A DNA stretch of 20,215 nucleotides from a virus. The stretch is from positions 1 through 20,215 of the IMG/VR virus record IMGVR_UViG_3300032291_004342; one strand, given 5' to 3'. The notes beneath the pieces were generated by a model. It was not told where the DNA came from, did no database searches, and saw only the letters and a list, made by a program, of their open reading frames with translations. Below, one piece after another: positions 1 through 17,869 of the stretch. Each line of letters begins with the position of its first letter. Within the stretch, counting starts at the first letter, position 1. The position numbers and the translations under genes are program-made.

Positions 1-201
1 GAAATGATTGTGAAGATTGTGGGCCGAGGCACCATTGAAGTTGGTGACCGAGATGCTGATTTTCCATCACGTGGTGCATTGAACATCGACAGGGCCAGAA
101 CCATTTTGAGTTTTGATCCCCGAGTAGACGTTGAAGAAGGATTCCAAAAGTACTATGAATGGCTCTCTAATTCAGTTTACTGGTCTTCAAAGACAGTATA
201 A
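1..201 (+). CDS. NAD-dependent epimerase/dehydratase, C-terminal end (5' partial)
   Basis: The reading frame is open from the first base to a TAA at 199-201, so the gene begins outside the window. The visible 66 residues end in a pattern typical of extended short-chain dehydrogenases that act on nucleotide sugars: DFPSRGALNIDRAR followed by a short helix and DPRVDVEEGFQKYYEWL. In that family the segment corresponds to the substrate-side C-terminal helices (RGxLDxxKAxxxLGYxP). The NAD-binding glycine motif and the catalytic Tyr-Lys pair would lie upstream and cannot be checked. The next gene, a sugar aminotransferase, starts inside this one, so the two are probably cotranslated and share a nucleotide-sugar pathway. 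The exact reaction (4-epimerase, 4,6-dehydratase or reductase) cannot be told from this fragment. Confidence 0.75.
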   Translation, partial: EMIVKIVGRGTIEVGDRDADFPSRGALNIDRARTILSFDPRVDVEEGFQKYYEWLSNSVYWSSKTV

Positions 202-1228
202 CAATCTACGCAAAGAGATACTGGATGCAACGGATCACGTTCTAGCATCTGGGCGTCTCATGAATGCAGAGCACACTGCCAACTTTGAGTCATGGTTGGC
301 CTACAAAAATCATGTCAAACATGCTGTTACCTGTCATTCAGGCACACAAGCACTAGAAATTATTGCCAGCTTTGCTCGACAAAGACTGGGAATAAATCCG
401 CCCACGGTGCTTGTTCCATCAATGACCTTTCCTGCATCAGCCAATGCATTTGTTCGCGCTGGGTGGAATCTGCATTTTGTAGACACTGATGCGTATGGCA
501 ACATGAATCTTACAAAAATACATCCTGATGTGTCGTATCAAGCCATACTTGGTATTGGCTTGTACGGATCAGCGTTGCCCAACGTATTACAAAATCGAAT
601 GGGTTCAGGCTTGATTGAAGACGCAGCTCAACATTGGCTCTCCAATGATTGCACTAGATATGGGTCAACCGCTATCAGTTTTGATCCCATGAAAAACCTA
701 GGCAACTATGGCAACGGTGGTGCTGTTGTCACAGATGATTATGAGTTGTTGAATTATGCTCATGGCTGGATCAACAACGGCAAGAGTACAGGCTATGCCG
801 AGATAGGAACAAACTCACGCATGAGCGAAGTTGACTGTGCTCAACTGTTGGTCAAAACCAAGTATCTAGATGCCTGGCAAGAAAGGCGCAAGCGCATTGC
901 GTTGTATTGGATGGATCGATTCAAAGGCTCACCTGTGCGCTGTTTGATCAACGAAACAAATTTTGAAAAACATTGCTTACACAAGTTTGTGGTTGACATA
1001 GACAATCGAAATCAAGTCCGAGCCAGGCTGCTAACGGCAGGTATTGATACTAGAGTGCATTACGAACACCCATTGCACGAGCTACCAGCATATCAGCATT
1101 ATTCAGGTCCAGATATACTTAGTGCTGCCAGCTCATTGAGCAGACGTTGCTTGAGCTTGCCTATCTATCCCGAGCTAACAGATACAGAAGTTGAGTACGT
1201 TGCTAGTTCGCTACTAAGCTGCGTTTGA
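155..1228 (+). CDS. DegT/DnrJ/EryC1/StrS-type PLP sugar aminotransferase
   Basis: Fold-type I PLP enzyme expected to transaminate a keto sugar or cyclitol on a nucleotide or free scaffold. From ATG 155 it is 357 residues, near family length. Visible motifs are SGTQAL (62-67, PLP phosphate side), IEDAAQ (154-159, the Asp that pairs with the pyridine nitrogen), SFDPMKNL with the expected Schiff-base Lys at 180, then GNGGAVVTDD, and GTNSRMSEVDCAQL (218-231). The same frame is open upstream to a TTG at 131, but neither start has a good Shine-Dalgarno site. ATG 155 is preferred because FTGLQRQY then lies near the N terminus as usual. It overlaps the upstream epimerase by 47 bases, and its 3' end overlaps the convergent repeat-protein gene by 26 bases. 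Amino-sugar synthesis is inferred from family and neighbour; the substrate is unknown. Confidence 0.9.
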   Translation: MNGSLIQFTGLQRQYNNLRKEILDATDHVLASGRLMNAEHTANFESWLAYKNHVKHAVTCHSGTQALEIIASFARQRLGINPPTVLVPSMTFPASANAFVRAGWNLHFVDTDAYGNMNLTKIHPDVSYQAILGIGLYGSALPNVLQNRMGSGLIEDAAQHWLSNDCTRYGSTAISFDPMKNLGNYGNGGAVVTDDYELLNYAHGWINNGKSTGYAEIGTNSRMSEVDCAQLLVKTKYLDAWQERRKRIALYWMDRFKGSPVRCLINETNFEKHCLHKFVVDIDNRNQVRARLLTAGIDTRVHYEHPLHELPAYQHYSGPDILSAASSLSRRCLSLPIYPELTDTEVEYVASSLLSCV

Positions 1229-4200
1229 CAAACGCATAACTGGCCAACCAAGCCCACTCGTAGCTCTTGCGGAGTTCAGTGGGATCGCCTTTGACTTCTT
1301 CATAATATTCTACAGCGTCTTGCGCACCTTTATGACTCCAGTGTCCATGGGCCATGGTGCCAGAGTCTTCCTTTAACCAAACTTTTAGTCTATATTCATT
1401 TTCTACGTCAGGCAAACTTGCACGTAGTTTAAGTGCTTCTCGGAACGCGGTGCGCCAAGCCATCCAGGGCGATTCAGCATACATGGCCGTGCCACTGAGA
1501 ATTGGTACAACTTCATGCGCTTGATCCAAGGTAAAGTCTAGTCCTACCCCAGTGTTCTCCAACACTAACTTTTTGTTGTAAGCAATCATGGCCTGGTGAC
1601 CGTACACCAAGCCATTCACAGGATTACCAGCATGAAAGATATAGTGCTTGGGCTGTTGCATACGATCAGGTTGCCAGGTCCAATCAAACATTTGATTCAC
1701 TTCTAGCTTGGCAAACACAGCAAAGAACCAAGGTGTGGTGCTGGCTCTAGCAGCCGCATGGTATGCTGCCACCCGTCCGTTTACACCTTCTACCACATGA
1801 ACGCGGTTTGTGTACCTTGACTCATTGGCCAGATACACTGTCATCTGCAAATAATTAGACTTGGCATTGGGTTCGCCATTGCTGATAAACACAATGTCCA
1901 AGGGTTGGTCTTTTAACCAACGTCGTGTTTTATCGATATGCGGATAATCATACAACTGTGTTCGTATATCTCCCACTGCTACTCTCGGAACAATCACGCT
2001 GGTTGCTCCTGCACTGAGTGGCACAATAGTTTTGGTTTCTTTGCGCCATAGCGGCACAGTGGCCATGTTGCCCGATGCTGAGTCTGTTGTGGTAAATGTG
2101 GCCAATGGTCCGGCCCAGGTTGTGTTTTTAACCACATCTACATGACTGTCTTCTGTGTGTTGTATCACAGGCATTGGCCGGCGTAGAACCTTGAGCCGAG
2201 ACACATAGTTTACACTATACCATTCCAACAACTGTTTCTTTTCTGCACGTTCAGCAAAGGTTGGAACATGCATGTAGAATGTGTCTCCAAACTTTTGTTC
2301 GTTGCTGGGGAACACATGCAGCATGGTGCTTTGCCACTTTTCTGGGTGCCAGGAGAAGTCAAAGTCAGTGTAATCACATATTGAACTACACACCCACACA
2401 TGTTCATGTGTGCCCACAAGACTTTTGGCCAGGCGAATCAATGTGTCACGATAGTTGTCAAAATATCGTATACGCTTAATGGTGTTGGGAATATTGCCTG
2501 CATGGCCATCCAAGTGATCGATCTCAACAACAGGCACAGATTCAGCTTTGACTTCGGCTTGCATCATGTCCACATACTTGATTTCTGTTGCACCTGGCAT
2601 ACGATACTGTGGGCCTCCGGTTTTTTGATGCTGTGTAGCAAATTGATAGATGTAAGGCGGTGATCCAGGATCCGGTACCCAAGAGAAATCCATGTCCCGA
2701 ATATCAACATTGTCTGGCACATGCCATAATGTCATGTCTGCTGGTAATTCAGCAACAGGTGAGTCCATGTACTTGCGGTCTGCGGCACCGGGCATGCGAT
2801 ATTCCACAGTGGGCATGATTTCGGCAGCATGCCATTGATTGCCAAACACGTAAATGTACGGAGGGTCGCCTGGGTCGGGCACCCAAGAATAATCCATGTC
2901 ACTTTCAACTACGTTGTACCAAGGTCGATTGGGGTTCTCAGGTAACTGGGCTTTTGGCTCATCCATGTATTTGACTTCTGTGGCACCCAGCATGCGATAT
3001 TCCACAGTGGGCATGATTTCGGCAGCATGCCATTGATTACCAAACATATAGTTGTATGGAGGGCTGCCAGGTTCTGGTTCCCACGACCAATCAAACACAC
3101 AATCAAACAGTGTTTGAAACTTTTCTGGATTGCCTTTGCGCTGTGCCTTTGGCTCATCCATGTACTTGATTTCGGTAGCGTTACCAACTGTGTACTGCAA
3201 TGCTGGCCGCTGTTCAGGTGTGAGCCATTGATTACCGAACACATACACATAAGGCGGATCAGTGGGGTTGGGTCTCCAGGAATAATCAAATTCTAGTACA
3301 TCATCAATCAGTTCAAACGCAGCAGGATTCTGCGCCACTGTGGCCACAATATCTTCCACATACTTGCGTTCTGTGGCACCTGGCACATGATAGGCCACAG
3401 TGGGCTCTAGCACTGCGCTGTTCCATTGATTTCCAAACACATAAATGTAAGGAGGATCAAACGGATTGGGTTCCCAGGAGTAATCAAATTGTTCTACATT
3501 GATATGCACATGCCAATGATTGCCGTAATTGGGCAACCGGCGTGTGCGGCGATCCATGTACTTGATTTCTGTTGCGCCGGACACATGATATCTCAAGCTG
3601 GCCTTGAACTCTGGTGGGTTCCATTGGTTGCCCCACACATAGATGTAAGGTGGGTCTTTGGGGTTTGGTACCCAGGTCCAATCCCATTCACTGTGGTCAA
3701 TATCTTCGCAAAACTCCCAGTCACTCATGCAACTGCTCAGCTCAGGTTGTGGACCATCTACGTATTTGATCTCTGTTGCACCAGGCACTGTGTATGTCAT
3801 AGTAGGCATGATTTCGCCAGGCCAATGTTGATTGCCCCACACATATACATACGGTGGTGATCCAGGATCTGGCACCCAGCTGTAATCCCATTGTTTGACA
3901 CATGCATGCATGGTCCAGTTGGTTTTGTCTTGGACTAATGTTGCAGTCATGTCCATGTACTTGCGTTCTGTGGCGCCAGGCATGCGATATTCCACAGTGG
4001 GCATGATTTCACCGGGCCACCACTGATTACCGAACACATAGATGTAAGGTGGATCCAATGGATGTGGAGCCCAGGTCCAATTCCAACCAGTTTCGTCTAT
4101 GGCATGCAACACATGCCAGTTTTTTCTTAGAGATTGGTTAGGAACAATCTCACTGTGGAAGTTCAATTGATCAGTGGGTTCTTTTGGAACCAGGTAAGTT

Positions 4201-4418
4201 CCCGAATAGTTGTGCCATTGGCTGGGCCATGTATGAATTTGATTGGCCTGCCAGGGCACAGGTTCCCAAAGAAAATCAAAGTTACTGTAGTCCGCTAAGT
4301 ATGTGACCCACCAAAAGTATCTAGTGGTGCTCAATTGCCGTGCATGTTCAATACTGTCAACTTCGCGCTCATGCACAAACAAATTAGGCTTAGGTCCTGA
4401 ATAAAAAATATCAAACAT
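1203..4418 (-). CDS. Giant repeat protein with C-terminal GT-A-like glycosyltransferase domain
   Basis: 1071 residues in three parts. (a) Residues 1-91: a divergent lead-in starting MFDIFYSGPKPN and containing NFDFLWEP. (b) About 92-617: eight repeats of 65-68 residues, each with a FDYSW.PdP core, then PPYIYVFGNQW, ending GATEIKYMD or similar. (c) About 640-1071: one more divergent unit (DFDFSWHPEKW, 685-695), then a domain starting PLDIVFISNGEPN (839-851), with SPWMAWRTAFREALKL (983-998) and RLKVW (1010-1014), which I recall from phage GT-A-like glycosyltransferases. Within that domain FDWTWQPDRMQQPKHYIF (911-928) matches the repeat core. Where such enzymes carry a DxD-like metal motif this protein has FAKLEV (902-907), so activity is uncertain. 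No signal peptide or membrane segment is obvious. The start codon shares the bases CATG with the divergent gene. Role unknown; glycan binding or transfer is inferred. Confidence 0.8.
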   Translation of the reverse strand: MFDIFYSGPKPNLFVHEREVDSIEHARQLSTTRYFWWVTYLADYSNFDFLWEPVPWQANQIHTWPSQWHNYSGTYLVPKEPTDQLNFHSEIVPNQSLRKNWHVLHAIDETGWNWTWAPHPLDPPYIYVFGNQWWPGEIMPTVEYRMPGATERKYMDMTATLVQDKTNWTMHACVKQWDYSWVPDPGSPPYVYVWGNQHWPGEIMPTMTYTVPGATEIKYVDGPQPELSSCMSDWEFCEDIDHSEWDWTWVPNPKDPPYIYVWGNQWNPPEFKASLRYHVSGATEIKYMDRRTRRLPNYGNHWHVHINVEQFDYSWEPNPFDPPYIYVFGNQWNSAVLEPTVAYHVPGATERKYVEDIVATVAQNPAAFELIDDVLEFDYSWRPNPTDPPYVYVFGNQWLTPEQRPALQYTVGNATEIKYMDEPKAQRKGNPEKFQTLFDCVFDWSWEPEPGSPPYNYMFGNQWHAAEIMPTVEYRMLGATEVKYMDEPKAQLPENPNRPWYNVVESDMDYSWVPDPGDPPYIYVFGNQWHAAEIMPTVEYRMPGAADRKYMDSPVAELPADMTLWHVPDNVDIRDMDFSWVPDPGSPPYIYQFATQHQKTGGPQYRMPGATEIKYVDMMQAEVKAESVPVVEIDHLDGHAGNIPNTIKRIRYFDNYRDTLIRLAKSLVGTHEHVWVCSSICDYTDFDFSWHPEKWQSTMLHVFPSNEQKFGDTFYMHVPTFAERAEKKQLLEWYSVNYVSRLKVLRRPMPVIQHTEDSHVDVVKNTTWAGPLATFTTTDSASGNMATVPLWRKETKTIVPLSAGATSVIVPRVAVGDIRTQLYDYPHIDKTRRWLKDQPLDIVFISNGEPNAKSNYLQMTVYLANESRYTNRVHVVEGVNGRVAAYHAAARASTTPWFFAVFAKLEVNQMFDWTWQPDRMQQPKHYIFHAGNPVNGLVYGHQAMIAYNKKLVLENTGVGLDFTLDQAHEVVPILSGTAMYAESPWMAWRTAFREALKLRASLPDVENEYRLKVWLKEDSGTMAHGHWSHKGAQDAVEYYEEVKGDPTELRKSYEWAWLASYAFVKRSLVAN
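1220..1236. other. Perfect inverted repeat at convergent gene ends
   Basis: TGCGTTTG (1220-1227), one base, then CAAACGCA (1229-1236). As RNA this would fold with about six base pairs and a five-base loop. It contains the TGA of the aminotransferase (1226-1228) and lies within the last codons of the opposing gene. There is no following T tract on either strand, so it is not a classic intrinsic terminator. It may be an RNA end-protecting hairpin, a weak bidirectional terminator, or chance. Confidence 0.4.
2568..4145 (-). repeat. Eight tandem coding repeats of about 66 codons
   Basis: Units by residue of the 1071-residue protein: 92-156, 157-221, 222-289, 290-355, 356-421, 422-486, 487-552 and 553-617. 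The spacing between KYMD-type ends is 65, 68, 66, 66, 65, 66 and 65 residues. Conserved in nearly all units: an aromatic-acidic-aromatic-Ser/Thr-Trp core, Pro then PPY.Y, FGNQW or WGNQ, Tyr about 15 residues later, GATE or similar, and KY[MV][DE]. The last unit is the most divergent after PPYIY (QFATQHQ). The first ~20 residues of each unit vary most. Confidence 0.9.
2792..3038 (-). repeat. Identical 49-base stretches in neighbouring repeat units
   Basis: Bases 2792-2840 and 2990-3038 read identically, 198 bases (66 codons) apart, inside repeat units 7 and 6. The first 31 bases of this stretch recur in unit 1, beginning at 3980. Other units encode similar residues with different codons, so the identity exceeds what protein conservation needs. 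This points to recent unit duplication or gene conversion. Confidence 0.85.
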
Positions 4419-5511
4419 GATTAGAATAGACGAAATTTACAACAACACCTTTTGGCCTTGGATTCGGCAGCATGTTCCCGGTACTAGAGTATTTTTTTGC
4501 GATCCCCCGGGGCGCAGTGATCCCGAAAGTTTGTTCAACTACGGTGGAGACGATGTACGCGAAATTGACTATATATTCATGCATGATCAAGAACCTGTTC
4601 ACATGGACTTGCACCGGCCGTTGTTTGATGATGTGATTCGCCGCAACAGTGATTTTTGGGGTGTTACTCCGCCTGGACATGTAGTAGTTAGCGAGCGGGG
4701 CGAGCACGTGGAAGAAATGTGTCGCGTGTATGGCTGGCAGCCTCACTACTATTTTTATCATGGTTGGGCCTGTCAAGATTGGTTTCGAGGCTACGACAAG
4801 AGTTTTTTGATTCCGCGAGCACAGGATCGGCAGCCCACACGGACTTTTATGAGTCCCAATCGTATCGTGGCCGGCAAGCGTGATCATCGTGTGTTGTTCT
4901 TGTATAACGTATTCAAACATGGGCTGGATCACAACTGGATATCGGCTCCTAGAACATGTACCTATGAGGGTGTTGATATCAGTAAGATAGCTCGTAAGTA
5001 TAATAACATATATCCCGACATTGAGCAAGTGTTTGCGGCAGCACCGTTGCCTAAACTGTTCCCCAGTGAGCAAACACAGCAAATGGCCAGTTGTTGGCTT
5101 ACAAACTTTGATGAGGCTGCTGACAGTTTAGTGTACGTGCCCACCGAAACTGTGTACTTTGGACGCCGTACACACATCACAGAAAAGACCTTCAAGGCCA
5201 TTGCCATGGAAATGCCGTTTGTGTTGGTGGCACCGGCTGGCAGCCTGGCCTACATGCGAGAATATGGTTTCCGCACATTTGATTCAGTGTTTGATGAGAG
5301 CTATGACTTGGAAACCGATGACATACTGCGAGTAGAAAAGGTCACCCAGCTGCTGAAACATCTAGAAAATCTAGGCGTTGAGGAACGTCAGCGCATACAC
5401 CGGGCCTGTGTTGAAATTGTGGAACACAACTTCAATCACTTCTACAACGGTGGGCTGACCAAGATATTATGGCAAGAGCTCATGGGCATGTTGGATGAAT
5501 TCACAGTTTAA
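4417..5511 (+). CDS. GT-B/fucosyltransferase-like glycosyltransferase, paralogue 1
   Basis: 364 residues. The best landmark is the C-terminal block ITEKTFKAIAM (254-264), then PFVLVAPAGSLAYMREYGF (267-285) and FDESYD (292-297), preceded by TETVYF. Glycosyltransferases that carry TEK..K..., a Pro-Phe strand, GSL and FDESYD blocks use this half to bind the nucleotide sugar; that function is family knowledge from memory, not shown here. The N-terminal half has IDYIFMHDQEP (50-60) and VVVSERGEH, plausibly the acceptor domain. Two further genes in the window share the C-terminal block. No Shine-Dalgarno site precedes ATG 4417, which overlaps the start codon of the divergent gene by two bases. The 3' end overlaps the next gene by 17 bases. 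Donor and acceptor are unknown. Confidence 0.7.
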   Translation: MIRIDEIYNNTFWPWIRQHVPGTRVFFCDPPGRSDPESLFNYGGDDVREIDYIFMHDQEPVHMDLHRPLFDDVIRRNSDFWGVTPPGHVVVSERGEHVEEMCRVYGWQPHYYFYHGWACQDWFRGYDKSFLIPRAQDRQPTRTFMSPNRIVAGKRDHRVLFLYNVFKHGLDHNWISAPRTCTYEGVDISKIARKYNNIYPDIEQVFAAAPLPKLFPSEQTQQMASCWLTNFDEAADSLVYVPTETVYFGRRTHITEKTFKAIAMEMPFVLVAPAGSLAYMREYGFRTFDSVFDESYDLETDDILRVEKVTQLLKHLENLGVEERQRIHRACVEIVEHNFNHFYNGGLTKILWQELMGMLDEFTV

Positions 5512-6685
5512 TTTTGTAGTTGACAGCACCATCAAAGGGCGTATATACCCAGCCCTGGCTCGTCATCAAGGCCGACCATACACGCAAAGCTGGCGTGAGT
5601 TTGGACAACACTGGCCCTACACCACACCCCTGCGCTTGGAAGAGTACTGCTGTGAACACGGCATTGTGATCAATAACTATGCTGTAGACACTGATTGCCC
5701 TGACAACAGTTACTATCCCATCTGCCTGGGATTCTTTGACTTTGAAATTGATTACTTTGAACTCATGTCTCCCGAAGTTAGAAAAAAGCTACGGCAAGAC
5801 AAACTGCGTGTGTTATTCATGTATCACGAAGGCGACAATCCCAGGCGCATTAAAAACAGATTGGATAGTCTAGCAGAGAACCATTTGCTTCCGCCAGATT
5901 GCTATGTTTTTGTAAGTGCCAACACCGCGGCTGATCAGTTGCCGGGTTTTGTTACATTTCATGACTTTGAGTTATGGTATTATCAGCGTAACTTGACCAG
6001 CACACCTTACATGATACATCGCGAGCCCAGACAACGAGACTTTACCTGTTTGAGCAGACTGCACAAATGGTGGCGTGCCACTGCCATGGCAGACTTGCAT
6101 CGCACAGGCTTGCTGAGCAACAGTTACTGGAGTTACTGTGAAGCACCTTACGATGCCGACACAGACTGTCCCATTGAAGTTGATATGATCAGTCGCTTGC
6201 GATATGATCGAACCAAATTTTTACAACAAGCACCTTATGTCAGTGACGAGTTGTCAGATTTTGATCGTAACAATCATGCTGTCATGGTGCCCAAATACTA
6301 TGGAGACTCCTACTGTCAAATTGTGCTAGAAAGTCAATTTGATGTGGATCAATCAGGTGGGGCATTTGTCACAGAAAAAACATTCAAGCCCATCAAACAC
6401 GGGCAACTGTTCTTTGTAGCAGGCGGCGCAGGCAGTTTGCAAGTGTTGCGTGACTTGGGCTATCAAGTGTTTGATGACTTGTTAGACAACAGTTATGACA
6501 CCATACCAAATCACACACAGCGTTGGGAATGCCTGCGTGACAGTATAGAAGCTGCCAGGCCACATTTGTCTGAATTGTTTGAAGCTGCCAGGCCACAGCT
6601 GGAACACAACCAACGATTATTTGTTGCCAACAAAGCTGATCGTTTAAATAGCTTGATCAGGAAAATTCATGAGCAATATAGTTAA
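5495..6685 (+). CDS. GT-B/fucosyltransferase-like glycosyltransferase, paralogue 2
   Basis: 396 residues with the same C-terminal block as its neighbour: VTEKTFKPI (292-300), LFFVAGGAGSLQVLRDLGY (305-323) and DDLLDNSYD (327-335). An upstream LESQFD matches the TET.. strand of the paralogues. The N-terminal half is different (for example YYPICLGFFDFEID, and RVLFMYHEGDN), suggesting another acceptor. Near the end EAARPHLSELF is followed by EAARPQLEHN, the protein result of a 17-base direct repeat. It overlaps the upstream gene by 17 bases and the downstream amidinotransferase by 17 bases, so the three plus-strand genes form one unit. Catalysis is inferred from the block only. Confidence 0.68.
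   Translation: MNSQFNFVVDSTIKGRIYPALARHQGRPYTQSWREFGQHWPYTTPLRLEEYCCEHGIVINNYAVDTDCPDNSYYPICLGFFDFEIDYFELMSPEVRKKLRQDKLRVLFMYHEGDNPRRIKNRLDSLAENHLLPPDCYVFVSANTAADQLPGFVTFHDFELWYYQRNLTSTPYMIHREPRQRDFTCLSRLHKWWRATAMADLHRTGLLSNSYWSYCEAPYDADTDCPIEVDMISRLRYDRTKFLQQAPYVSDELSDFDRNNHAVMVPKYYGDSYCQIVLESQFDVDQSGGAFVTEKTFKPIKHGQLFFVAGGAGSLQVLRDLGYQVFDDLLDNSYDTIPNHTQRWECLRDSIEAARPHLSELFEAARPQLEHNQRLFVANKADRLNSLIRKIHEQYS
6548..6597 (+). repeat. 17-base direct repeat inside paralogue 2
   Basis: GAAGCTGCCAGGCCACA occurs at 6548-6564 and 6581-6597, 33 bases apart, keeping frame and encoding EAARPH and EAARPQ. It may reflect an in-frame 33-base duplication that has partly diverged. No mobile element boundary is visible. 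Confidence 0.8.
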
Positions 6686-7712
6686 TTCATACACGTCGTG
6701 GCAACCACTAGAAGAAGTCATTGTGGGACGGGCCTACACACCTGACTACTTTGATTTTATAGACAATCCACAGGTGCGCAATCAATTGCAACAGATTCTC
6801 CATGAAACTGAAGAAGATCTCAACAACCTGCAACGAACCATTGAACAATACGGTGCTCAAGTGCGGCGTCCTGATTTGCCCAACAAAGATCAATTTGTAT
6901 GGTTTCAGACCGAAGGAGGAGGTGCTGCACTGCCGCCACTGACGCCACGCGACTGGCAAATCACCCTGGGCGATAAATTGTTGCGTGTGTTGCCCATGCA
7001 AGAGCTTGATTCACTGTGCGCTGAATATGCGGCCGCACAGCCTGGCGCAGTGATCAATCCACACGGTACTACTGGTTGGGACGAGAACTGCATCCTAAAC
7101 GGTGCGTCGGCGTCATGCATTGTGCGAGTAGGCCGTGATGTATTCTTTGATAACTCAGATTTCTTACGTCCAGATCAAACTCGTTGGATTGTGGACAATG
7201 TGTTGGGACCAGAATATCGCATACACGAAGCCATCACTGATGGCCATGGTGATGCGGTGTTTGCCATTCTCAAGCCTGGAGTGCTGCTGAGTAGCAAGCA
7301 CGATGTTAATTTGGATCTGGCCCGAGACTTTCCTGGCTGGGATGTGTGCAAGATTTGGGATAGCTCAATATGGGCAGCTATGGAAGTTGGCAAGTTCAAG
7401 TACGAACAATCACCGGGTGCTTGGTATGTACAAGGGCAAACACCTACCGCAGAGTTCACACAGTTTGTGGACACTTATCTGACCAAGTGGACTGGCTTTG
7501 TTGCTGAAACTGTGTTTGATGTGAACTGTCTTGTGTTAGACGAAAGCCATGTGGTATTCTCCGCATACAATCGAGAAGTGTTTGACTACTGCCGCCGGCA
7601 TCGGATAGAACCTATCATCAGCGAACTGCGTCATTCGTACTTCTGGGACGGTGGCATCTCATGCTGTACACAAGACATCCGCAGACGCGGCGGATTAGAG
7701 ACTTACCTCTAA
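6669..7712 (+). CDS. Glycine/inosamine-type amidinotransferase (AGAT/StrB family)
   Basis: 347 residues, family-length. AGAT and StrB move the amidino group of arginine to an amine, making a guanidino product, through a covalent Cys intermediate. Landmarks: SYTSWQPLEEVIVG (7-20) at the N terminus, IVRVGRDVFF (151-160), DGHGDAVFAILKPGVLLSS (191-209) with the expected catalytic His 193, and GGISCCTQDIRRRG (328-341) with the expected nucleophile Cys 332, ending LETYL as in AGAT. Against remembered human AGAT, the Asp of its AADFIRAGRD segment falls at Cys 150 here, so the usual Cys-His-Asp triad may be altered. It is the last gene of a three-gene plus-strand unit with two glycosyltransferases, which favours an amino-sugar acceptor over creatine-type metabolism. 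Its stop overlaps the convergent methyltransferase stop. Confidence 0.85.
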   Translation: MSNIVNSYTSWQPLEEVIVGRAYTPDYFDFIDNPQVRNQLQQILHETEEDLNNLQRTIEQYGAQVRRPDLPNKDQFVWFQTEGGGAALPPLTPRDWQITLGDKLLRVLPMQELDSLCAEYAAAQPGAVINPHGTTGWDENCILNGASASCIVRVGRDVFFDNSDFLRPDQTRWIVDNVLGPEYRIHEAITDGHGDAVFAILKPGVLLSSKHDVNLDLARDFPGWDVCKIWDSSIWAAMEVGKFKYEQSPGAWYVQGQTPTAEFTQFVDTYLTKWTGFVAETVFDVNCLVLDESHVVFSAYNREVFDYCRRHRIEPIISELRHSYFWDGGISCCTQDIRRRGGLETYL

Positions 7713-7719: not shown

Positions 7720-8494
7720 CGTCCCGATAAAATCTACCAGCAGTGTCGTCAGGACCTGTGACAGGAGTCATTGGCAACTCTCCTAGCGTTCTAGGCCAGG
7801 CTAGAATACTCATCAATGCACTCCCGCCAAAAATATTGTCAGTGTTGCCGGCAAAATTAGCAGGATTATAATTGTTGACCTGCGCCCAATAAAATCTATA
7901 TCTGTCATCTCCTAACAGCAGATATATTTGTTTAAGGTCTGGGCTTTCATGTGCTTCATAGTAGACCACAGGACAATATTGTTGTATGATTTGTTGACAA
8001 CCTTGCAGCACCTGTAATTCGTGACCTTCTGCATCAATCTTGACAAAGTCCGGCGGCTCCAAGCCAGCAGTGTCTAAATCAATGGCACGGACCGGAATTC
8101 CTGTGGTGTTACCAACCACACTGACAGCACCAAAATTGCTGGTCTGATCAGGATCATAATCTGAGATATAGCATGTTGATCTAGTGTTGCTTACTGCATA
8201 CTGTCCCAAGAACACATTGTCAAAATTTTCAGTGTTTTTTTCTAACAAAGCATAGTTACCAGGGTGTGGTTCAAATGCATACACACGTCTGGCCCGTGTG
8301 GCAAATGCTGTGGTATGGTATCCTATGTTGGCTCCCACATCATATACCACGGCATCATCAGTTAAAAAACTCAGGATAAAATCAATTTCGCACTGACTGT
8401 ATTCACCATAACAATCAATGCTGGTACCAATCATTAGATCATTGCTGTGATACCAAAATTCATTGCAGTATCGAGTTTTTGTAGATTTAATCAC
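7709..8494 (-). CDS. FkbM-family SAM-dependent methyltransferase
   Basis: 261 residues. Motif I is VYDVGANIGYHT (50-61) for S-adenosylmethionine binding, followed by AFEPHPGNY (73-81) and the FkbM hallmark FVKIDAEGHELQVLQG (150-165). The family usually O-methylates sugars or polyketides. The start is a GTG at 8494, forming a GTGA overlap with the stop of the carbamoyltransferase; the next in-frame Met is residue 21, which would still leave the SAM domain intact. It is the final gene of the long minus-strand run, and its stop codon overlaps that of the convergent amidinotransferase. Role as a late decorating enzyme is inferred from the neighbours; the acceptor is unknown. Confidence 0.88.
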   Translation of the reverse strand: MIKSTKTRYCNEFWYHSNDLMIGTSIDCYGEYSQCEIDFILSFLTDDAVVYDVGANIGYHTTAFATRARRVYAFEPHPGNYALLEKNTENFDNVFLGQYAVSNTRSTCYISDYDPDQTSNFGAVSVVGNTTGIPVRAIDLDTAGLEPPDFVKIDAEGHELQVLQGCQQIIQQYCPVVYYEAHESPDLKQIYLLLGDDRYRFYWAQVNNYNPANFAGNTDNIFGGSALMSILAWPRTLGELPMTPVTGPDDTAGRFYRDGHP

Positions 8495-9978
8495 GAATAC
8501 ACCGTTACACCATATAACATTTCAAAACGATCAGCATCTGCACGATCGTTGACCATGGGCTCTCCACGTATGTTCAAACTGGTGTTGAGCAACATGGGAC
8601 AACCAGTTTCAGCATACCAGGCTTCCAACAATTGTCTTATTCCCGATCCATCCGCTGTCACCGTTTGCACTCGGCTGGTGCCATCAACATGACATATACT
8701 AGGGTAAACATCAGATTGGCGGCAATGAGCAACGGACTGCATATAACTGTGAGTATGCCAGCCAGGCTTGATGTCAAAGTATTGATCAGCCAGTTCGACC
8801 AATATAACTGGTGCAAAGGGTCTGAATTGTTGTCTGCGTTTGATTGCATTTACTTGGCCTTTTATGTTGGGCCTACGTGGGTCAGCCAGTAGACTACGAT
8901 TTCCTAGTGCTCTGGGACCAAACTCAGCACGGCCAGAGGCCGCTCCCGCAATGCCAGTGTCAAGTAAACCGCGAACAAGATTGTCAACAGGATAAGCGCC
9001 AGGGATATTGTGACCAAGGTAAGCATTGTGCCAATGCAGACGTTTACCATAAGCAAGAGCAGCGGCTCCAAGACTTGATCCAGCATCGCCAGGGCAGGGC
9101 ATGATCCAGACGTTGTCAAAGTATTTCCCTAGTTGTTTGTTGGCCAAACAGTTGAGTGCAACACCACCTTGATACACAAGATTTGTTGACCACTTAAAGT
9201 CTCTGGCCCTGCACATAACATTGCCTATCAAACGTTCTAACAATCTCTGAGCACTGGCAGCAATATCCACATGATCAAGACCGCCCATGAAGGTATCACT
9301 GACTCCGGTATGTAAGTTTTGTTTGAACTCTGCGGTGCTGGGATCACTGATCAATGCTGCTTCCATGAGATCATGGTAATGATCATCACCATATGCTGCC
9401 ATGCCCATGGTGATGTATTCTTCGTCTAGTGGGTGTAGGCCCACACGCTTAGTAATTGCACTGTAAAACAGACCCAGGCTGTGGGGATATCGTTGTGCCC
9501 ACAGTTGCTTGTACTGTGCTCGTCCTTTTCTGTCATATTCTGCTGCCCAGATTGTAATGGTGTCCCACTCTCCTATGGCATCAATTACCACAACAGTGGC
9601 ACGATCGTATGGTGACGTTTGAAACCCACCTGCAGCATGCGAAAGGTGGTGATTAAAACTACGCACATGCTCAGGTTCAATTTGCCCGCCCAACTGTTGT
9701 TTTAATATTTGTCGTGTGGTAAGTTTGTCCCATTCAATGCCTTGGCCTGCGTACCATTGTCTAAATTGTTTGTTCCAGGGACGTTCATAGTATGCAACCA
9801 CATCTGGCCCATACTCTACAACTTCGTCTAGCAAGCCCTGACAGAAGTCAGCGTCGTTTTTCTTTTTTGAATAACGTTCCGAATGGCCAGCAAACAGGAT
9901 CTCCCCGTCAGGTGAGATTACCGTAGCGGCTGCATCATGAAAGCCTGCACTAATTCCTAATATATTTTGCAATTTCAT
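8491..9978 (-). CDS. NodU/CmcH-type O-carbamoyltransferase
   Basis: 495 residues. This family (NodU, CmcH, TobZ) transfers a carbamoyl group from carbamoyl phosphate, via carbamoyl-adenylate, to a hydroxyl of a sugar or antibiotic. Visible: ILGISAGFHDAAATVI (6-21) opening the ASKHA-like fold, SFNHHLSHAAGGF (107-119) with the conserved metal/adenylate histidines, VVVIDAIGEWDT (129-140), LVYQGGVALNC (267-277), and the C-terminal YrdC-like signature GRAEFGPRALGNRSLLADPR (349-368) with FRPFAP (385-390). It is somewhat shorter than many members (typically 550 or more). It overlaps the SGNH gene upstream by 29 bases and the methyltransferase downstream by 4, implying coupled translation. Carbamoylation of the same glycan the neighbours build is inferred. 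Confidence 0.93.
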   Translation of the reverse strand: MKLQNILGISAGFHDAAATVISPDGEILFAGHSERYSKKKNDADFCQGLLDEVVEYGPDVVAYYERPWNKQFRQWYAGQGIEWDKLTTRQILKQQLGGQIEPEHVRSFNHHLSHAAGGFQTSPYDRATVVVIDAIGEWDTITIWAAEYDRKGRAQYKQLWAQRYPHSLGLFYSAITKRVGLHPLDEEYITMGMAAYGDDHYHDLMEAALISDPSTAEFKQNLHTGVSDTFMGGLDHVDIAASAQRLLERLIGNVMCRARDFKWSTNLVYQGGVALNCLANKQLGKYFDNVWIMPCPGDAGSSLGAAALAYGKRLHWHNAYLGHNIPGAYPVDNLVRGLLDTGIAGAASGRAEFGPRALGNRSLLADPRRPNIKGQVNAIKRRQQFRPFAPVILVELADQYFDIKPGWHTHSYMQSVAHCRQSDVYPSICHVDGTSRVQTVTADGSGIRQLLEAWYAETGCPMLLNTSLNIRGEPMVNDRADADRFEMLYGVTVYS

Positions 9979-10695: not shown

Positions 10696-11717
10696 TTCAG
10701 TCTCCTTATTTGTTGATCAGCATAATCTCGATCGCTCCAGCGATAGTCATATGTAGCTTCTGCGTCACTGGTACGAATTTTATATACATCCAATCTATTT
10801 GAAATCTGTTGCCAAATCTGATTGTAGTCCAAGGTACCAAATGATTTTGACAAATTGACTTGCGCTACCTTGGGATGGCCAATGGTCAGCGACCGATCTT
10901 CGGGATCAAATCCATTGTCTACTAACCATGTTCGAAATTCTGCAATTTTTTTTATTTGCCACGGATATGAACCTGGATCCCGTGCCCACTCAATATCAAA
11001 ATCGCCAGCTGCCTCAGTTTGATTACGCAGTCCTGTGGTAACCAACTCGTCTACACCACGCCCTTCGTCATTGAATACTTCCCAGTGTGTTTTGCCCACT
11101 GCTTTGTTCACACCAACGTACACTGCACCCATTTGTCTGTTGAGTGTGTCTATTCCAAACAGTTCAAAATCTTCTGTGTCCAATGCAAAACGTGGTGCAT
11201 TGAGCCAGCACATTAACTGACTGGGTCGGCGCCAGGCAGGTGCTTGTATGACCTTGCGCATGCTGAGCACAAGGCTTTCATATTCATGACACAACAAATT
11301 TAATTGGCGTATGTGCCAACGTGTGGCAGCATCTGCTTGATTCCAATAAGCACTCATGTGCCCAGAGTGACCCTGTAGGTCTTCAAAGTACCGATGCAGT
11401 CGATTCATACGATCATGGTCAACATTCAAATTATCTTGTATGGTCTCTCCCACAGTAAAATAATCATCAATGGTATACCCTAAATTAGCTGTGTTTATTG
11501 CTTGAATACTGGCATTGATGCTCTCAATTATATATTCTGCTGTTCGCGCACTTTCAGTCCATCCTAGCCAACAATAGTTTTTTTCTAAATGCAAATCATT
11601 GCGTAAAATATTGTTCAGTGCAGCCAGCCATTTGCAACTGAGACTGTTGTCTGTGACATCAATGTACAGTGTGAGCTGGTCTGCACCACGCAGGTCTATT
11701 TCGATTCTATCAAGCAA
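10692..11717 (-). CDS. Conserved-looking protein of unknown function, 341 residues
   Basis: Not recognised. It begins at a TTG (11717), eight bases inside the end of the upstream radical SAM gene; no ATG occurs in frame until residue 104, so the TTG start is the best choice. Soluble-looking, with no membrane segment. Segments that look constrained are LYIDVTDNSLSCKWL (17-31), a helical middle, MGAVYVGVNKAVGKTHWEVF (196-215), AAGDFDIEW (236-244), and WLVDNGFDPEDRSLTIGHP (264-282). It ends with an ATGA overlap to the small peptide gene. Its place directly after four radical SAM genes suggests it serves the same pathway, perhaps as a partner or substrate-handling protein; that is inference. Confidence 0.7.
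   Translation of the reverse strand: MLDRIEIDLRGADQLTLYIDVTDNSLSCKWLAALNNILRNDLHLEKNYCWLGWTESARTAEYIIESINASIQAINTANLGYTIDDYFTVGETIQDNLNVDHDRMNRLHRYFEDLQGHSGHMSAYWNQADAATRWHIRQLNLLCHEYESLVLSMRKVIQAPAWRRPSQLMCWLNAPRFALDTEDFELFGIDTLNRQMGAVYVGVNKAVGKTHWEVFNDEGRGVDELVTTGLRNQTEAAGDFDIEWARDPGSYPWQIKKIAEFRTWLVDNGFDPEDRSLTIGHPKVAQVNLSKSFGTLDYNQIWQQISNRLDVYKIRTSDAEATYDYRWSDRDYADQQIRRLK
10701..10707 (-). promoter_or_regulatory. Strong Shine-Dalgarno site of the 33-residue peptide gene
   Basis: On the minus strand the sequence reads AAGGAGA, then CTGAA, then ATG. It lies within the final codons (IRRLK) of the upstream gene. Most other starts in this run depend on overlap and have weak or no such site, so this peptide is probably translated at a higher rate. 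Confidence 0.75.
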
Positions 11718-12987
11718 TTGAGTTCCACCATTCTAACACCGCAGGTCTAGCCGACAGTATTTCTGTCATTGTGGTCGGCTGTGTGCGTATTTTTTCTAAT
11801 TGTAACACCCGAGCTCGACCTTTTACAAGTCCTTTGGCATATTCATTGGGCCATTGTTCAGCAAATGTGGGTCTAGTTTTTAGTTGTAACAACACATCAC
11901 GTAATGCGCCATCCACTTCGGGCACAAGTTCATCAATCCAAGGTTCTAACAAAGATCTAGGCAAGGCCAATGGACTCATAACAATGTCAGGCGAGAATGA
12001 AAATATCACTTTGGCAAGGACGTCGACTCCGTATGTGTTGGCAAGTTGTCTAATGCGTGTAACTTCGAACATTCCGGGCAAAGTGAGCGTAAAGTCAATT
12101 CGGACTTGACGTCTGTGACGTTGGATCTCAACTGCTTGACCAAAATTATCAAGCCAGCGATCATAGTCAAGACCTGTTCTGATGTATTCACCAATTGCGC
12201 CTGTGCCGTCGAGACTTGCACATATCTGCCAATCGCGCAACCCAGAAAGAATATTGCGATATAAGTTAACACCCCGATAATCCACTCTGGATAAATTTGT
12301 ATTGTATCTAGCATATACTCGTGGTCCATCCCCTAGTTCAACTATGCGTTTCATATAACGCCAATGTTGTTCGTACATAAGTGGCTCTCCGCCTACCCAG
12401 TACACTTCTTCAACACGGTGTTGTTCTACAGCATCAGCAAACTCTTGTTCAATTTGACTGTCTTGAAATGCAGAAATTTCTCGCCGCACTTCAGGTCTCA
12501 TCCAGGTGTTCTTGGGATTTGACCAGTCAACCATGTTGTGCTGCTTTTGCTCTGTTTCCCAACTACTGCTCAACATGTCACCGCAGGTTCTGCATTTAAA
12601 ATTGCACAAATTTGAAAATCTATAATCCCAACTCACAGGCTGCATTGTGGTGCGACCCGCGGTGTCTGTAGTTTCCCAGATATCAGGATACTTATGTTTG
12701 AACAACTGCCAAAAATATGTGCGGTAAACATCAGTATTCAGCAACTTGTCATTGCATACTTCGCACTCAGGCAGTGTTTCACCCGCCATCATTCTACTGC
12801 GCACACTCATCATGTGTGGCGAGTTCCAGTGCTGATCTAGTGTGATGGGAATATACCGGCCAGTTCCGGCTGCTGTGTCTATGTACTGTTCAAAGTTTTG
12901 TGCAGGCTCACGACTTGCACAACACATACGACGTTCTGTTTGTGGGCTCAAATAAGTATGCACCCAAGGTGCCATGCAAAGACTCAT
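11710..12987 (-). CDS. Radical SAM protein with N-terminal cysteine (twitch-like) module, no. 5
   Basis: 425 residues. The radical SAM motif is CNFKCRTC, with Cys 128, 132 and 135 holding the cluster that cleaves S-adenosylmethionine; GGEP follows at 199-202. An N-terminal module has C-M-A-P-W (4-8), Cys 22 and 23, and C-E-V-C (75-78), the pattern of an auxiliary Fe-S site placed before, not after, the barrel. Members of this type recur in marine phages (recollection), but their substrates are not known to me. It is the last of four consecutive radical SAM genes, starting with an ATGA overlap and ending with an 8-base overlap. It is most like the 402- and 420-residue neighbours (FC..PW, CC, C..C pattern). 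Confidence 0.88.
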   Translation of the reverse strand: MSLCMAPWVHTYLSPQTERRMCCASREPAQNFEQYIDTAAGTGRYIPITLDQHWNSPHMMSVRSRMMAGETLPECEVCNDKLLNTDVYRTYFWQLFKHKYPDIWETTDTAGRTTMQPVSWDYRFSNLCNFKCRTCGDMLSSSWETEQKQHNMVDWSNPKNTWMRPEVRREISAFQDSQIEQEFADAVEQHRVEEVYWVGGEPLMYEQHWRYMKRIVELGDGPRVYARYNTNLSRVDYRGVNLYRNILSGLRDWQICASLDGTGAIGEYIRTGLDYDRWLDNFGQAVEIQRHRRQVRIDFTLTLPGMFEVTRIRQLANTYGVDVLAKVIFSFSPDIVMSPLALPRSLLEPWIDELVPEVDGALRDVLLQLKTRPTFAEQWPNEYAKGLVKGRARVLQLEKIRTQPTTMTEILSARPAVLEWWNSIA

Positions 12988-14192
12988 TGATATCCAATCA
13001 AGTCCGCAAGTTCAGGTTCAACTGTGCGCAAGTTTTGATTGCGTTTGCGATCCAAGTCTGCAATCTTCATGCGCAACATAAATCCGTCTGATGAGGCACC
13101 ACGATTCATAAAGTCAATAATACGATCAAATTCTTCACGATACTGTGTGGGCACGTCAGCTGAACGTAAGTGATCAGTGATTTGCGTTTTAGCACTGTCT
13201 GGTAGTGTGGCAATGGAAAAATACCATGCATCATGCATCATGTTCCAGTACACAAAGTCAAAACGTTGTAATGCTATCCAATGGGCCAGTTTGTCAATGT
13301 AACGCACATTGAATATGTTTACGGTTGAACAACATTGCAGTCTCAAGTTGGGCATTTGATCTCGTAGATATTGAAAACTTGTGATTGTGTCTTCCACCAC
13401 AGCCCAGTCTGCATTGGTTCGTTGATATTCAAATCTTGCACCCAGATCATCTATTGAGAATGCCACTTCCACTGTTTTAAAATGCCGCCAAATTGATTCT
13501 GCTTCTGCAGGATAGTGTGTGCCATTGGTGTTGTAGTGTATCTCTACCTGATGTGCAATACCACGATCCACAATGCCTTGTAACATGGCAAAGTGTTCTC
13601 GAATCATGAATGGTTCGCCACCAGTGAATTCAATGTAGCGTATGTGATTTAAACACTGATCAATTTCTGCCCAAAATGATTGATTTTCTCTGGGCCATGC
13701 TCCGGCTCGCAGCATTTGATAGGGAAACGATTTCTTTTTATCCTCATCCGGGTGCATGTCATTGAGTTCTTCTGTGGCAAATTGACTTGATGACCATGAG
13801 CCGCATATGCGGCATTTTAAATTGCAGATGTTGCCCAGCTTTAGATCTAGGAACATCAGGGGCTTGGCATCGGTGGTCCATTCATTGCTGATGCCCATGT
13901 GCTTCATTCTGTCCAGGGTGTGCATGCGTTTGCTTGTACGGCCAGCACGTTCTTCATTCCAGCACTTGCGACAGGTCTGCGGTTTTTTGCCTGCCAAGAA
14001 CTCTTCACGCAATTGTGTCATTGCACGAGAATTTTGTATGCTTTCAAAGTCAGCTGACAACAGTGAGAACTTGTGGCCTGCATCATCTACCAATTCGTCG
14101 TCGGCCAAGCAGCAAGGACGCACTGTGCCAATGGGCGAAGCTTCTAGGCTGACCCAGGGCAATACGCAAAATTTATCGTGTGGCACATTCAT
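12984..14192 (-). CDS. Radical SAM protein with N-terminal cysteine (twitch-like) module, no. 4
   Basis: 402 residues. N-terminal module: FCVLPWVSLEASPIG (8-22) with Cys 9, PCC (26-28), CRKCWNEERAG (74-84). Radical SAM motif CNLKCRIC with Cys 123, 127 and 130; TGGEPFM at 190-196. This is the clearest example of the FC..PW/PCC/C..CW subfamily in the window. Both ends are 4-base overlaps with radical SAM neighbours (ATGA at 14189-14192 and 12984-12987), so the three proteins are likely made in similar amounts and could act as a series or complex. No peptide-recognition (RRE-like) region is obvious. Substrate unknown. Confidence 0.9.
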   Translation of the reverse strand: MNVPHDKFCVLPWVSLEASPIGTVRPCCLADDELVDDAGHKFSLLSADFESIQNSRAMTQLREEFLAGKKPQTCRKCWNEERAGRTSKRMHTLDRMKHMGISNEWTTDAKPLMFLDLKLGNICNLKCRICGSWSSSQFATEELNDMHPDEDKKKSFPYQMLRAGAWPRENQSFWAEIDQCLNHIRYIEFTGGEPFMIREHFAMLQGIVDRGIAHQVEIHYNTNGTHYPAEAESIWRHFKTVEVAFSIDDLGARFEYQRTNADWAVVEDTITSFQYLRDQMPNLRLQCCSTVNIFNVRYIDKLAHWIALQRFDFVYWNMMHDAWYFSIATLPDSAKTQITDHLRSADVPTQYREEFDRIIDFMNRGASSDGFMLRMKIADLDRKRNQNLRTVEPELADLIGYQ

Positions 14193-15451
14193 TTTAAAGC
14201 CTTTAGTTCTGGCAGTACATCCAGGATGTTTTCATTTCGTATAGAATCTAACTCATGTGTTTTACGCCAGAATGTATCTATAAGATTGGTGTTGTCTGTG
14301 GCATTCATAAATGTTATAGCACTTTCAAAGCCCTGTGTGGCACGTTGTAGCGTATCTCTATCACTGATCCAGTCAAGATGTTTACGGTACTTGGCTTCTA
14401 ACCGTTGTTTGTAGTCAGCAGGAGCAATATCTATTCTGAAATAGGCTGGGTCTTGAAGAATATTTACATTTAGATCCTGAGCGCGAATCAATCCATGGGC
14501 CACCCATTCTCTGTGAAAGTCTGGCAGGTGCCAAGCATTCATTATGCTGAGTGTGGGCGAAATATAAAAGTCCACCTGGGGGCAGGTGCGTATCATGTCA
14601 TGACGATTCTTTACCACGTCGGCCCAGGTAGTGCCTTTTCTAATATACTCTGCAGGACGGCCCATGGCATCCAAACTGGCGCCTACTGCTACACTCTTGA
14701 ATTGTTTCCAATATTCAAACACTGAGCGACCTTTTAAGTCTGTGTGCGTGAAGTTTGTGTTGTATATTAATCTAACATCAAACCGTCCACGTTTCACAAG
14801 CTCTTCTAAAATATTGTAGTGTTCTTCCATCAACAATGGTTCGCCGCCTGCAAAGTATATCTGCTCTACATAATCCAAGTGCGGCTCTAGTTGTGTCCAC
14901 ATGTCTGTTTCTGTGCGCCCTGCATAGTTTAACACAGTGTTACGTTCTTTCCAGTCGCCTCCAGCCAGCTTGGCTTGGTCCTGGTACCATTGGCTGCTGA
15001 AGATATGCCCACATGAACGACACTTCAAATTGCATAGGTTTGAGAAACGAATGTCCCAGTAAGTCATTTCAAATGGGTTCTCTTCTAGCTTTTTAATATG
15101 ATGCCCGTGATGTTTGTTGGCTGACCGACGACCTGAAAAGAATCCAGATTCTTCCTGCTCATAGCAACGTGTACAGGCAGCATGTGGTGTTTCGCTCAAC
15201 ATATCTGCACGTAGCTTCTGCATGGGTGCATCCTGCCATATTTCTTCTAGTGTATTTGTTCTACAGTTGCCCACCACACCTGGCTTCATTTCAGCATGAC
15301 AGCAAGGGTATGCTTCGCCTGTGGGGTAAGCATGTAGATGAATCCAGGGATAAATGCAAAAAGTTTTGGAATCTTTTAACAAGAATTCTTCACGAGCAGT
15401 CAATTCCGTGGGTCTTACTAGATCACTACTGTTGTATTTGTAAGCTGTCAT
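14189..15451 (-). CDS. Radical SAM protein with N-terminal cysteine (twitch-like) module, no. 3
   Basis: 420 residues. A leader of about 30 residues precedes FCIYPWIHLHAYPTG (31-45) with Cys 32, PCC (49-51), and CTRCYEQEESG (93-103). Radical SAM motif CNLKCRSC with Cys 140, 144 and 147; AGGEPLLMEEHY from 201. Compared with the 402-residue neighbour it carries a His-rich stretch, ANKHHGHHIKK (111-121), between the N-terminal module and the barrel. It overlaps the preceding gene by 26 bases and the following one by 4 (ATGA). The order of motifs is that of a twitch-type enzyme with the auxiliary cluster at the N terminus; the reaction cannot be read from sequence. Confidence 0.9.
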   Translation of the reverse strand: MTAYKYNSSDLVRPTELTAREEFLLKDSKTFCIYPWIHLHAYPTGEAYPCCHAEMKPGVVGNCRTNTLEEIWQDAPMQKLRADMLSETPHAACTRCYEQEESGFFSGRRSANKHHGHHIKKLEENPFEMTYWDIRFSNLCNLKCRSCGHIFSSQWYQDQAKLAGGDWKERNTVLNYAGRTETDMWTQLEPHLDYVEQIYFAGGEPLLMEEHYNILEELVKRGRFDVRLIYNTNFTHTDLKGRSVFEYWKQFKSVAVGASLDAMGRPAEYIRKGTTWADVVKNRHDMIRTCPQVDFYISPTLSIMNAWHLPDFHREWVAHGLIRAQDLNVNILQDPAYFRIDIAPADYKQRLEAKYRKHLDWISDRDTLQRATQGFESAITFMNATDNTNLIDTFWRKTHELDSIRNENILDVLPELKALK

Positions 15452-16775
15452 ACCATTCTTTCAAATTGGGAAATGCTGTGCTAAAATCTTTTGATCTACG
15501 CTGATCGTATTGTGTGTAAAACTGCCGGAAGTCATTTAATAGTTTGGGTAATTCAAATGCTTCTGAGTGCGGAGTTTTTACTATGTCCAGGTAATCAATC
15601 AGGCGTTGTACATGATTTATTTCGTGTTCATGCAAGCAAGGGTTTTCACGATTGTGGAACAACCATGCTTTCAACTGCAAACAATAACGATTTCGCATGT
15701 CATCCGGCAATACCAACGCACTTTGAAAACTAGGAAAGCGCAAGATGTTCAATGTAAAGTTAACTTGATCGCGACCATAACGTTGCTTTAAACTCAACAT
15801 CAGATTGAGGTGGTCCACAAGACTGTCCAGACACAAGGCATTGACGGTACACATCACATGCACAGCACTAACAAACTGACCTTGTAACAAAAACAACACA
15901 TTGTCGATCCATTGATTGTAATCTAGTCCGTCACGAATGTATTCAGCCTGCGCCCAGGTGGCTTCCATTGAAGTATATAGATCTACCTTGGGCAACGTGG
16001 CTATTGCCACAGCAAATTCTTTGACCTTGTCCAAGTCAATGCCCAGGTTTGAATTGATAGCCAATCGGGTTGTACTACGTCCTTGATTGATTTTGAACCA
16101 CTCAATCAGTTTCCAGGTGTAGCCCGACATCAAGGGCTCGCCGCCGGTTATTCGGAGTTCTTGCAGTGTTCTGTGGAGGTCTCTTTCCCACCAGTCAAAG
16201 AAGGCTTCCACGTAAGGATTAGTTTCACCGAATTTATAAAGTTGACTGCTATCATGAGTATGAGTAAAATGGTTCCTGCCATCGCTGACCAGCCCGTTAT
16301 AGGGTCCATGTTTTCGTATATCGTTAACCCAAGTGCTACTGAAAGCAGGATTGCAATAAGAACAAGCAAATTGACAAGTGCGATCGAAACTGATTTCCAG
16401 TGTTCTAAGATTGACATCATCTTGGATGGGGGTGTTGACTGCGTCATGCAAGGCCTTTATGGGATAAATTTTTGATTTGTACACACGGTCACTCACAGCA
16501 TTGGTGTCCATGTCTTCAATCTTCCAGCAGTATTCACAGCCTGCAGGACGCTCTCCAGCCAACATCTTGCGTCGGTCCGCTTTCTTTTGATCAGTATTGT
16601 GCAGCAGCCTAGAGTTGTTATTGACTTTATCAATGTCAATCAAATGAGCTGGCGGGTGATGACAACTTGTGGTCTGCCCACTTCCTAACCAAATGGTAGC
16701 ATTGTACCATTTCGCTGCACAAAAACTTGGGGACACAGAGTCCAACACCTGTTGTTTAAATTCTAAATCATTCAT
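15426..16775 (-). CDS. Radical SAM protein, SC(H/Y)HPP subfamily, no. 2
   Basis: 449 residues. The N-terminal module differs from the other subfamily: FCAAKW (18-23), SCHHPPAH (37-44), LHNTDQKKADR (58-68) and CEYCWKIED (80-88). Radical SAM motif CQFACSYC with Cys 134, 138 and 141; TGGEPLM from 210. NPYVEAFFDWWE (186-197) is shared with the 465-residue paralogue, so the two form a distinct pair. Start ATG 16775 overlaps the glycosyltransferase stop by eight bases (ATGAATGA). It ends 26 bases inside the next radical SAM gene. The separate N-terminal signature suggests a different substrate or redox partner from genes 3-5; this is inference. Confidence 0.9.
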   Translation of the reverse strand: MNDLEFKQQVLDSVSPSFCAAKWYNATIWLGSGQTTSCHHPPAHLIDIDKVNNNSRLLHNTDQKKADRRKMLAGERPAGCEYCWKIEDMDTNAVSDRVYKSKIYPIKALHDAVNTPIQDDVNLRTLEISFDRTCQFACSYCNPAFSSTWVNDIRKHGPYNGLVSDGRNHFTHTHDSSQLYKFGETNPYVEAFFDWWERDLHRTLQELRITGGEPLMSGYTWKLIEWFKINQGRSTTRLAINSNLGIDLDKVKEFAVAIATLPKVDLYTSMEATWAQAEYIRDGLDYNQWIDNVLFLLQGQFVSAVHVMCTVNALCLDSLVDHLNLMLSLKQRYGRDQVNFTLNILRFPSFQSALVLPDDMRNRYCLQLKAWLFHNRENPCLHEHEINHVQRLIDYLDIVKTPHSEAFELPKLLNDFRQFYTQYDQRRSKDFSTAFPNLKEWYDSLQIQQ

Positions 16776-17868: not shown

Positions 17869-17869
17869 A

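Follow-up and report, generated by a model that had tools for sequence, protein, structure and literature searches.

An ordered, optional array of repeat units homologous to the cores of its flanking GT-A-like domains in a family of jumbo phage proteins

Introduction

Why should a phage protein with glycosyltransferase-like domains carry a series of internal repeats, and where did these repeats come from? The question is raised by IMG/VR virus record IMGVR_UViG_3300032291_004342, whose entire 20,215 bases form the window analysed here and which may itself be a genome fragment. An intact open reading frame (ORF) at 1206–4418 on the minus strand encodes a protein of 1071 residues, in which a reading of the sequence without database searches (the sequence-only reading) had noticed an array of eight repeat units that seemed to be built from a piece of the protein's own glycosyltransferase fold. 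We find that the array is an ordered series of old, position-specific units, homologous to the cores of all three domains that flank it and varying from 0 to 13 units among orthologues. This anatomy is well supported; from it we infer, tentatively, that the protein is a scaffold or ruler made of non-canonical GT-A domains that takes part in phage glycan assembly.

Anatomy of the array protein

A profile hidden Markov model (HMM) of the repeat unit found exactly eight full units of about 66 residues in the window protein, with scores of 86–97 bits, bearing out the predicted array. The same model placed three weaker cores at residues 43–79 (i-E 1.7e-7), 681–705 (1e-6) and 909–928 (2.9e-4), where divergent copies had been proposed at 46–51, 685–695 and 911–928. 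The features of the gene, all on the minus strand, are as follows, with the supporting evidence in brackets.

1206–4418: whole array protein, 8 units, 1071 residues (ORF call, orthologues)
4134–4418: N-terminal GT-A-like domain, residues 1–95, with core FDFLWEP at residues 43–79 (unit HMM, profile comparison)
3945–4103: unit 1 core, residues 106–158, type M (unit HMM, typing)
3750–3899: unit 2 core, residues 174–223, type L (unit HMM, typing)
3546–3704: unit 3 core, residues 239–291, type D (unit HMM, typing)
3342–3503: unit 4 core, residues 306–359, type E (unit HMM, typing, structure prediction)
3144–3299: unit 5 core, residues 374–425, type G (unit HMM, typing, structure prediction)
2949–3104: unit 6 core, residues 439–490, type F (unit HMM, typing, structure prediction)
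2751–2915: unit 7 core, residues 502–556, type A (unit HMM, typing)
2556–2711: unit 8 core, residues 570–621, type C (unit HMM, typing)
1929–2531: middle domain, residues 630–830, strongly conserved and without DxD, with core FDFSWHPEKWQ at residues 681–705
1206–1907: C-terminal domain of predicted GT-A fold, residues 838–1071
1707–1715: FAK, residues 902–904, at the place of DGD in a homologous GT-A-like protein
1635–1694: core copy FDWTWQPD in the GT-A domain, residues 909–928 (unit HMM)

The units are aromatic and rich in Asn and Trp. A tandem-repeat search of the array gene at the DNA level found no repeats, and the array is detectable in the protein only, because the units within one protein are on average only about 44% identical (averaged over the orthologue set). 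In one orthologue (L005) the middle domain contains a small tandem duplication (NNQNSMQHVFPTNNQ) within the most conserved part of the domain. Neither the array protein nor its C-terminal region gave an informative match in Pfam, PHROGs or PDB sequences, and there was no significant match to PHROG tail or fibre families. A Pfam LAG1 match (6e-5) was taken to reflect composition, since it falls below the Pfam cut-off and lies inside the repeats. Literature searches found nothing on the array protein.

Relationship of the units to the flanking domains

When a profile of 304 units was compared with the flanking domains using hhalign, it matched the middle domain with an E value of 5e-8, the N-terminal domain with 3e-6 and the C-terminal domain with 2e-5. 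None of 150 column-shuffled unit profiles reached the observed score against any of the three (best shuffle 19.8; observed 32–37), so the similarity between the units and the glycosyltransferase-like C-terminal domain on which the original proposal depended is present. The N-terminal and middle domains are clearly related to each other (E 2e-11), while the N- and C-terminal domains (E 4.5e-4) and the middle and C-terminal domains (E 2e-3) match more weakly, yet in each case better than all of 100 shuffles. The closest relative of the units is the middle domain, followed by the N-terminal domain and then the GT-A C-terminal domain.

All three flanking cores are retained, according to the unit HMM, in orthologues that have no units, and they are therefore not eroded copies of the array. 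Since such orthologues exist, the array is an optional insert. The unit profile showed no direct similarity in hhalign to a separate, canonical family of DGD-bearing proteins described below, and the idea that the units were copied from the protein's own glycosyltransferase domain is thus correct only in the sense that the core has a common ancestry. Of two further resemblances that had been proposed, that of TTRYFWW to TTPWFFA falls inside the aligned portion of the N- and C-terminal domains, but that of the start to the start of the C-terminal domain, MFDIFYSGPKPN and LDIVFISNGEPN, falls outside it.

Number, order and evolution of the units

The array family has at least 496 matches in IMG/VR. 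In 95 non-redundant complete orthologues, protein length runs from 529 to 1395 residues and is quantised with a period of 66.6 residues (R 0.907); all unit numbers between 0 and 13, both included, are represented, and the HMM count equals the count derived from length in 93 of them. The array gene was absent from 50,697 INPHARED phage records searched with tblastn, and the protein had no match in GTDB genomes.

Of 300 units, 294 find their best match in a different protein (matches of at least 93% identity being excluded). The units are position-specific types in a conserved order and overall are not recent duplicates, as is seen in the type strings JNFIIIKDEGFAC (13 units), MLDEGFAC (the window, 8), DEGAPC (6), AAC (3) and B (1); wherever there is at least one unit, the final one is of type B or C. 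Where at least eight copies of a central segment had been envisaged, we see old, ordered cassettes. Recent tandem duplications do occur, with neighbouring units up to 80% identical, and on a tree of the N- and C-terminal parts, whose details are uncertain owing to recombination, closely related proteins have repeatedly come to differ in unit number, such as two that are 85% identical and have 8 and 10 units. Between the window and one relative (L009) synonymous divergence (dS) is 0.05 in the units and 0.84 in the C-terminal domain, from which it follows that the gene recombines internally. The units are under purifying selection, with a ratio of nonsynonymous to synonymous divergence of 0.10–0.20.

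Structure of the array and its loops

A model of units 4–6 built from 121 alignment rows was all-beta and rigid, with a predicted local distance difference test score (pLDDT) of 96.1 and a predicted template modelling score (pTM) of 0.86. The array is thus predicted to be a rigid all-beta rod that would be without the nucleotide-binding half of GT-A. In the predicted secondary-structure strings the strand order around FDxxW is the same in the unit and in the C-terminal domain. The unit triplet gave no meaningful Foldseek match in the PDB (best E 3.7) and none with VIA, an absence that is not proof of a new fold; in BFVD it matched just two proteins, uncharacterised and from uncultured phages, that have this array as well.

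Following the motif FGNQW is a loop of about 8 residues (columns 40–47) that is nearly constant within a unit type and differs between types. With types defined without these columns, the ratio of within-type to total entropy was 0.09–0.36 in the loop, whereas the 36 other variable columns had a median of 0.44 (Mann-Whitney p = 9e-6). The loop aligns with the NPVNGL loop of the C-terminal domain, and N-x-[VI]-NGL is conserved in the DGD family.

The C-terminal domain and its DGD-bearing homologue

Structure prediction gives the C-terminal domain a GT-A fold. Its AlphaFold2 model, from 59 sequences, had a mean pLDDT of 86.7 and a pTM of 0.48, and in this model residues 838–981 resemble GT-A enzymes, with VIA Z scores of 11.8 for B4GALNT1, 10.8 for WrtF and 9.8 for SpsA. 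Residues 627–980 align with both domains of tandem GT-A proteins, with a root mean square deviation of about 14 Å for the pair; residues 627–830 align in several rows of the VIA comparison, though at that deviation for the pair.

On each of 15 related phage contigs out of 15, the single array gene is accompanied by a separate gene for a GT-A-like protein of about 310 residues that is a direct homologue of the C-terminal domain (profile E 1.8e-15, 30% identity); in the 13 contigs mapped it lies about 15–24 kb from the array gene. This protein stands alone, keeps the DGD motif and, unlike the array protein, has neither units nor an N-terminal or middle domain. All 80 homologues have DGD, read by pattern in 79 of them and by inspection in the other. 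At the corresponding position 84 of the 95 array proteins, those readable by pattern, have FAK, FGK or WAK, the other 11 being unread. The alignment with the homologue thus confirms FAKLEV at the place where a DxD-like motif was expected. Lys904 is invariant at the replaced motif, the DGD-family motifs NxVNGLxYG and AWRxxFRE are retained, and the N-terminal and middle domains also have no DxD. It is plausible that the protein binds rather than catalyses, although the replaced motif keeps the invariant Lys and some GT-A enzymes work without metal.

For the DGD protein itself, nothing in Pfam, PHROGs or the PDB matched significantly, so that its activity is presumed from fold relatives and motif only. 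Such proteins form a large unannotated family with at least 594 matches in IMG/VR (L116–L130, L274–L353). In GTDB genomes there was one match, on a 335-kb contig (L135, PBPT01000016.1) of a Neomarinimicrobiota metagenome-assembled genome whose bin also contains two phage Gp23 genes; this probably represents phage contigs binned as bacterial.

Genomic setting

By their Gp23 capsid protein, the related phages belong to the jumbo phages of the T4 superfamily; this protein is 62–66% identical to those of Vibrio phage 2.275.O, PA5oct and XaC1. Moraphages (PMC12619734) were considered as the lineage; their description, the only basis of the comparison, mentions glycosyltransferase genes and does not mention radical S-adenosylmethionine (SAM) proteins.

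At most loci the array gene stands back to back with a glycosyltransferase-like (GT-like) gene and converges on an aminotransferase gene. In the window these neighbours are:

4417–5511, plus strand: GTa, the GT-like partner gene, divergent and syntenic, its start overlapping that of the array gene in CATG
131–1228, plus strand: DegT/DnrJ/StrS aminotransferase, convergent, a conserved neighbour

In 63 of 67 array loci, and at 4414–4419 of the window, the two start codons overlap in CATG and leave no intergenic space, and about 45 bases around this overlap are strongly conserved. The conserved upstream "ISSILI" is the antisense of the divergent gene start, which rules it out as an N-terminal extension or element.

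The wider cluster comprises the DGD protein, five twitch-type radical-SAM proteins, GT-like genes, FkbM, the aminotransferase, a NodU-type carbamoyltransferase (8491–9978) and an amidinotransferase of the arginine:glycine or inosamine-phosphate type (6669–7712; nearest AGAT, StrB1/SxtG). Its core is conserved in 13 genomes, as much with 0 units in the array as with 11. The five distinct radical-SAM genes (window 11710–19929, L138–L154) keep the same order in 13 jumbo phage clusters, with a carbamoyltransferase gene and GT-like genes interspersed or adjacent; four were scanned and called with NF033640 and the fifth, rSAM_465, by Pfam. Three GT-like proteins, GTa, GTb and GTc (window 4417–6685 and 16768–17868), share a TEKTFK or similar motif and, in the searches made, matched no Pfam, PHROG or NCBIfam family significantly. 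Together, the amidinotransferase, DegT aminotransferase and carbamoyltransferase suggest a guanidino- or carbamoyl-sugar product.

Possible function of the array

We consider a scaffold or ruler of DxD-less GT-A domains the most economical reading, because the order of the types and the constancy of their loops point to each unit making one specific contact, and we give it a probability of roughly 0.4. A core fragment of about 66 residues would have been inserted 0–13 times between N-terminal, middle and C-terminal domains derived from GT-A. The protein would not be an ordinary metal-dependent glycosyltransferase but a platform working with the DGD protein, GTa–c and the modifying enzymes of the cluster. 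Each unit may offer one position-specific binding site around the loop that matches the parent GT-A loop, contacting either successive sugars of a growing chain or partner enzymes, and unit number would set the reach or length of the chain or complex. As the product we would expect a modified glycan, attached to the virion, the phage DNA or the host surface. A stronger version, in which the order and number of units form a protein-encoded template specifying glycan length and perhaps sequence, we regard as improbable.

Several points weigh against the scaffold or ruler. Glycan binding by the units is putative, and the loops specific to each type might just as well contact partner proteins or adjacent units. 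The gene content of the cluster is independent of unit number, genomes with 0 units matching the gene counts of those with 10. The strongly conserved middle domain might be catalytic, and the C-terminal domain may be active, since DxD has given way to an invariant Lys and there are GT-A enzymes that need no metal; DxD is not found in all GT-A families. The protein could then be an active transferase in which Lys904 takes the place of the metal and the array is an acceptor-binding spacer, as the retained motifs and invariant lysine would allow. We think this unlikely, though deserving of serious weight, as DxD has been lost here while the homologue 15–24 kb away keeps DGD, and the other two domains do not have DxD either.

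The rigid beta rod, variable unit number, type-specific loops and intragenic recombination would also suit a virion or surface fibre or adhesin with receptor-facing loops and GT-like ends serving in assembly, but the gene is always found in a glycan-type cluster, at most loci next to the divergent GT-like gene, the ends are GT-A-like, and no significant PHROG match was obtained, tail and fibre families included; we hold this quite unlikely. More doubtful still is that the repeats are a carrier or substrate, either a glycoprotein or akin to ribosomally synthesised and post-translationally modified peptides, that is modified by the five radical-SAM proteins and glycosyltransferases. The five N_Twi_rSAM-like proteins of the conserved cluster and the aromatic, Asn- and Trp-rich units fit such a role; the same five proteins, however, are present in genomes with 0 units (G014, G015), and the units are predicted to be well folded, unlike leader peptides. 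Least probable, and already disfavoured, is near-neutral expansion with a functionless unit number: this number is indeed very labile on the tree, but purifying selection, conserved type order and constant type-specific loops all speak against it.

Relation to known systems and significance

The fold predicted for residues 838–981 is that of GT-A glycosyltransferases such as SpsA, WrtF, B4GALNT1, SunS/ThuS and the PBCV-1 capsid glycosyltransferase (2p72), from which the array protein differs in having FAK for DxD and in embedding the domain in a multi-domain repeat protein. Two consecutive GT-A-like parts, which residues 627–980 may also form, are found in human LH3, mimivirus R699 and the chondroitin polymerases CHSY/CHPF; these have no detectable sequence relation to the array protein, their domain orientation is unmatched, and we know of no amplified core array in any of them. 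The closest functional analogue may be the coiled-coil chain-length rulers of O-antigen enzymes, WbdD and WbbB (PMC11231755), with which the array would share a possible role as a rigid, variable-length element in a glycan-assembly protein. Structurally the two differ, the array being a predicted all-beta rod of GT-derived units with no terminator domain identified.

The carriers of this family are giant aquatic phages. The natural ladder of 0–13 units makes the idea of length measurement testable and is a resource for studying length control. Even if the array has another role, it belongs to a large unannotated family in which, unusually, part of an enzyme core has become a rigid repeat module. 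The prevailing view holds that glycans are made without a template; if the array does guide glycan assembly, a gene-encoded number and order of units would be tied to the length or structure of a glycan chain.
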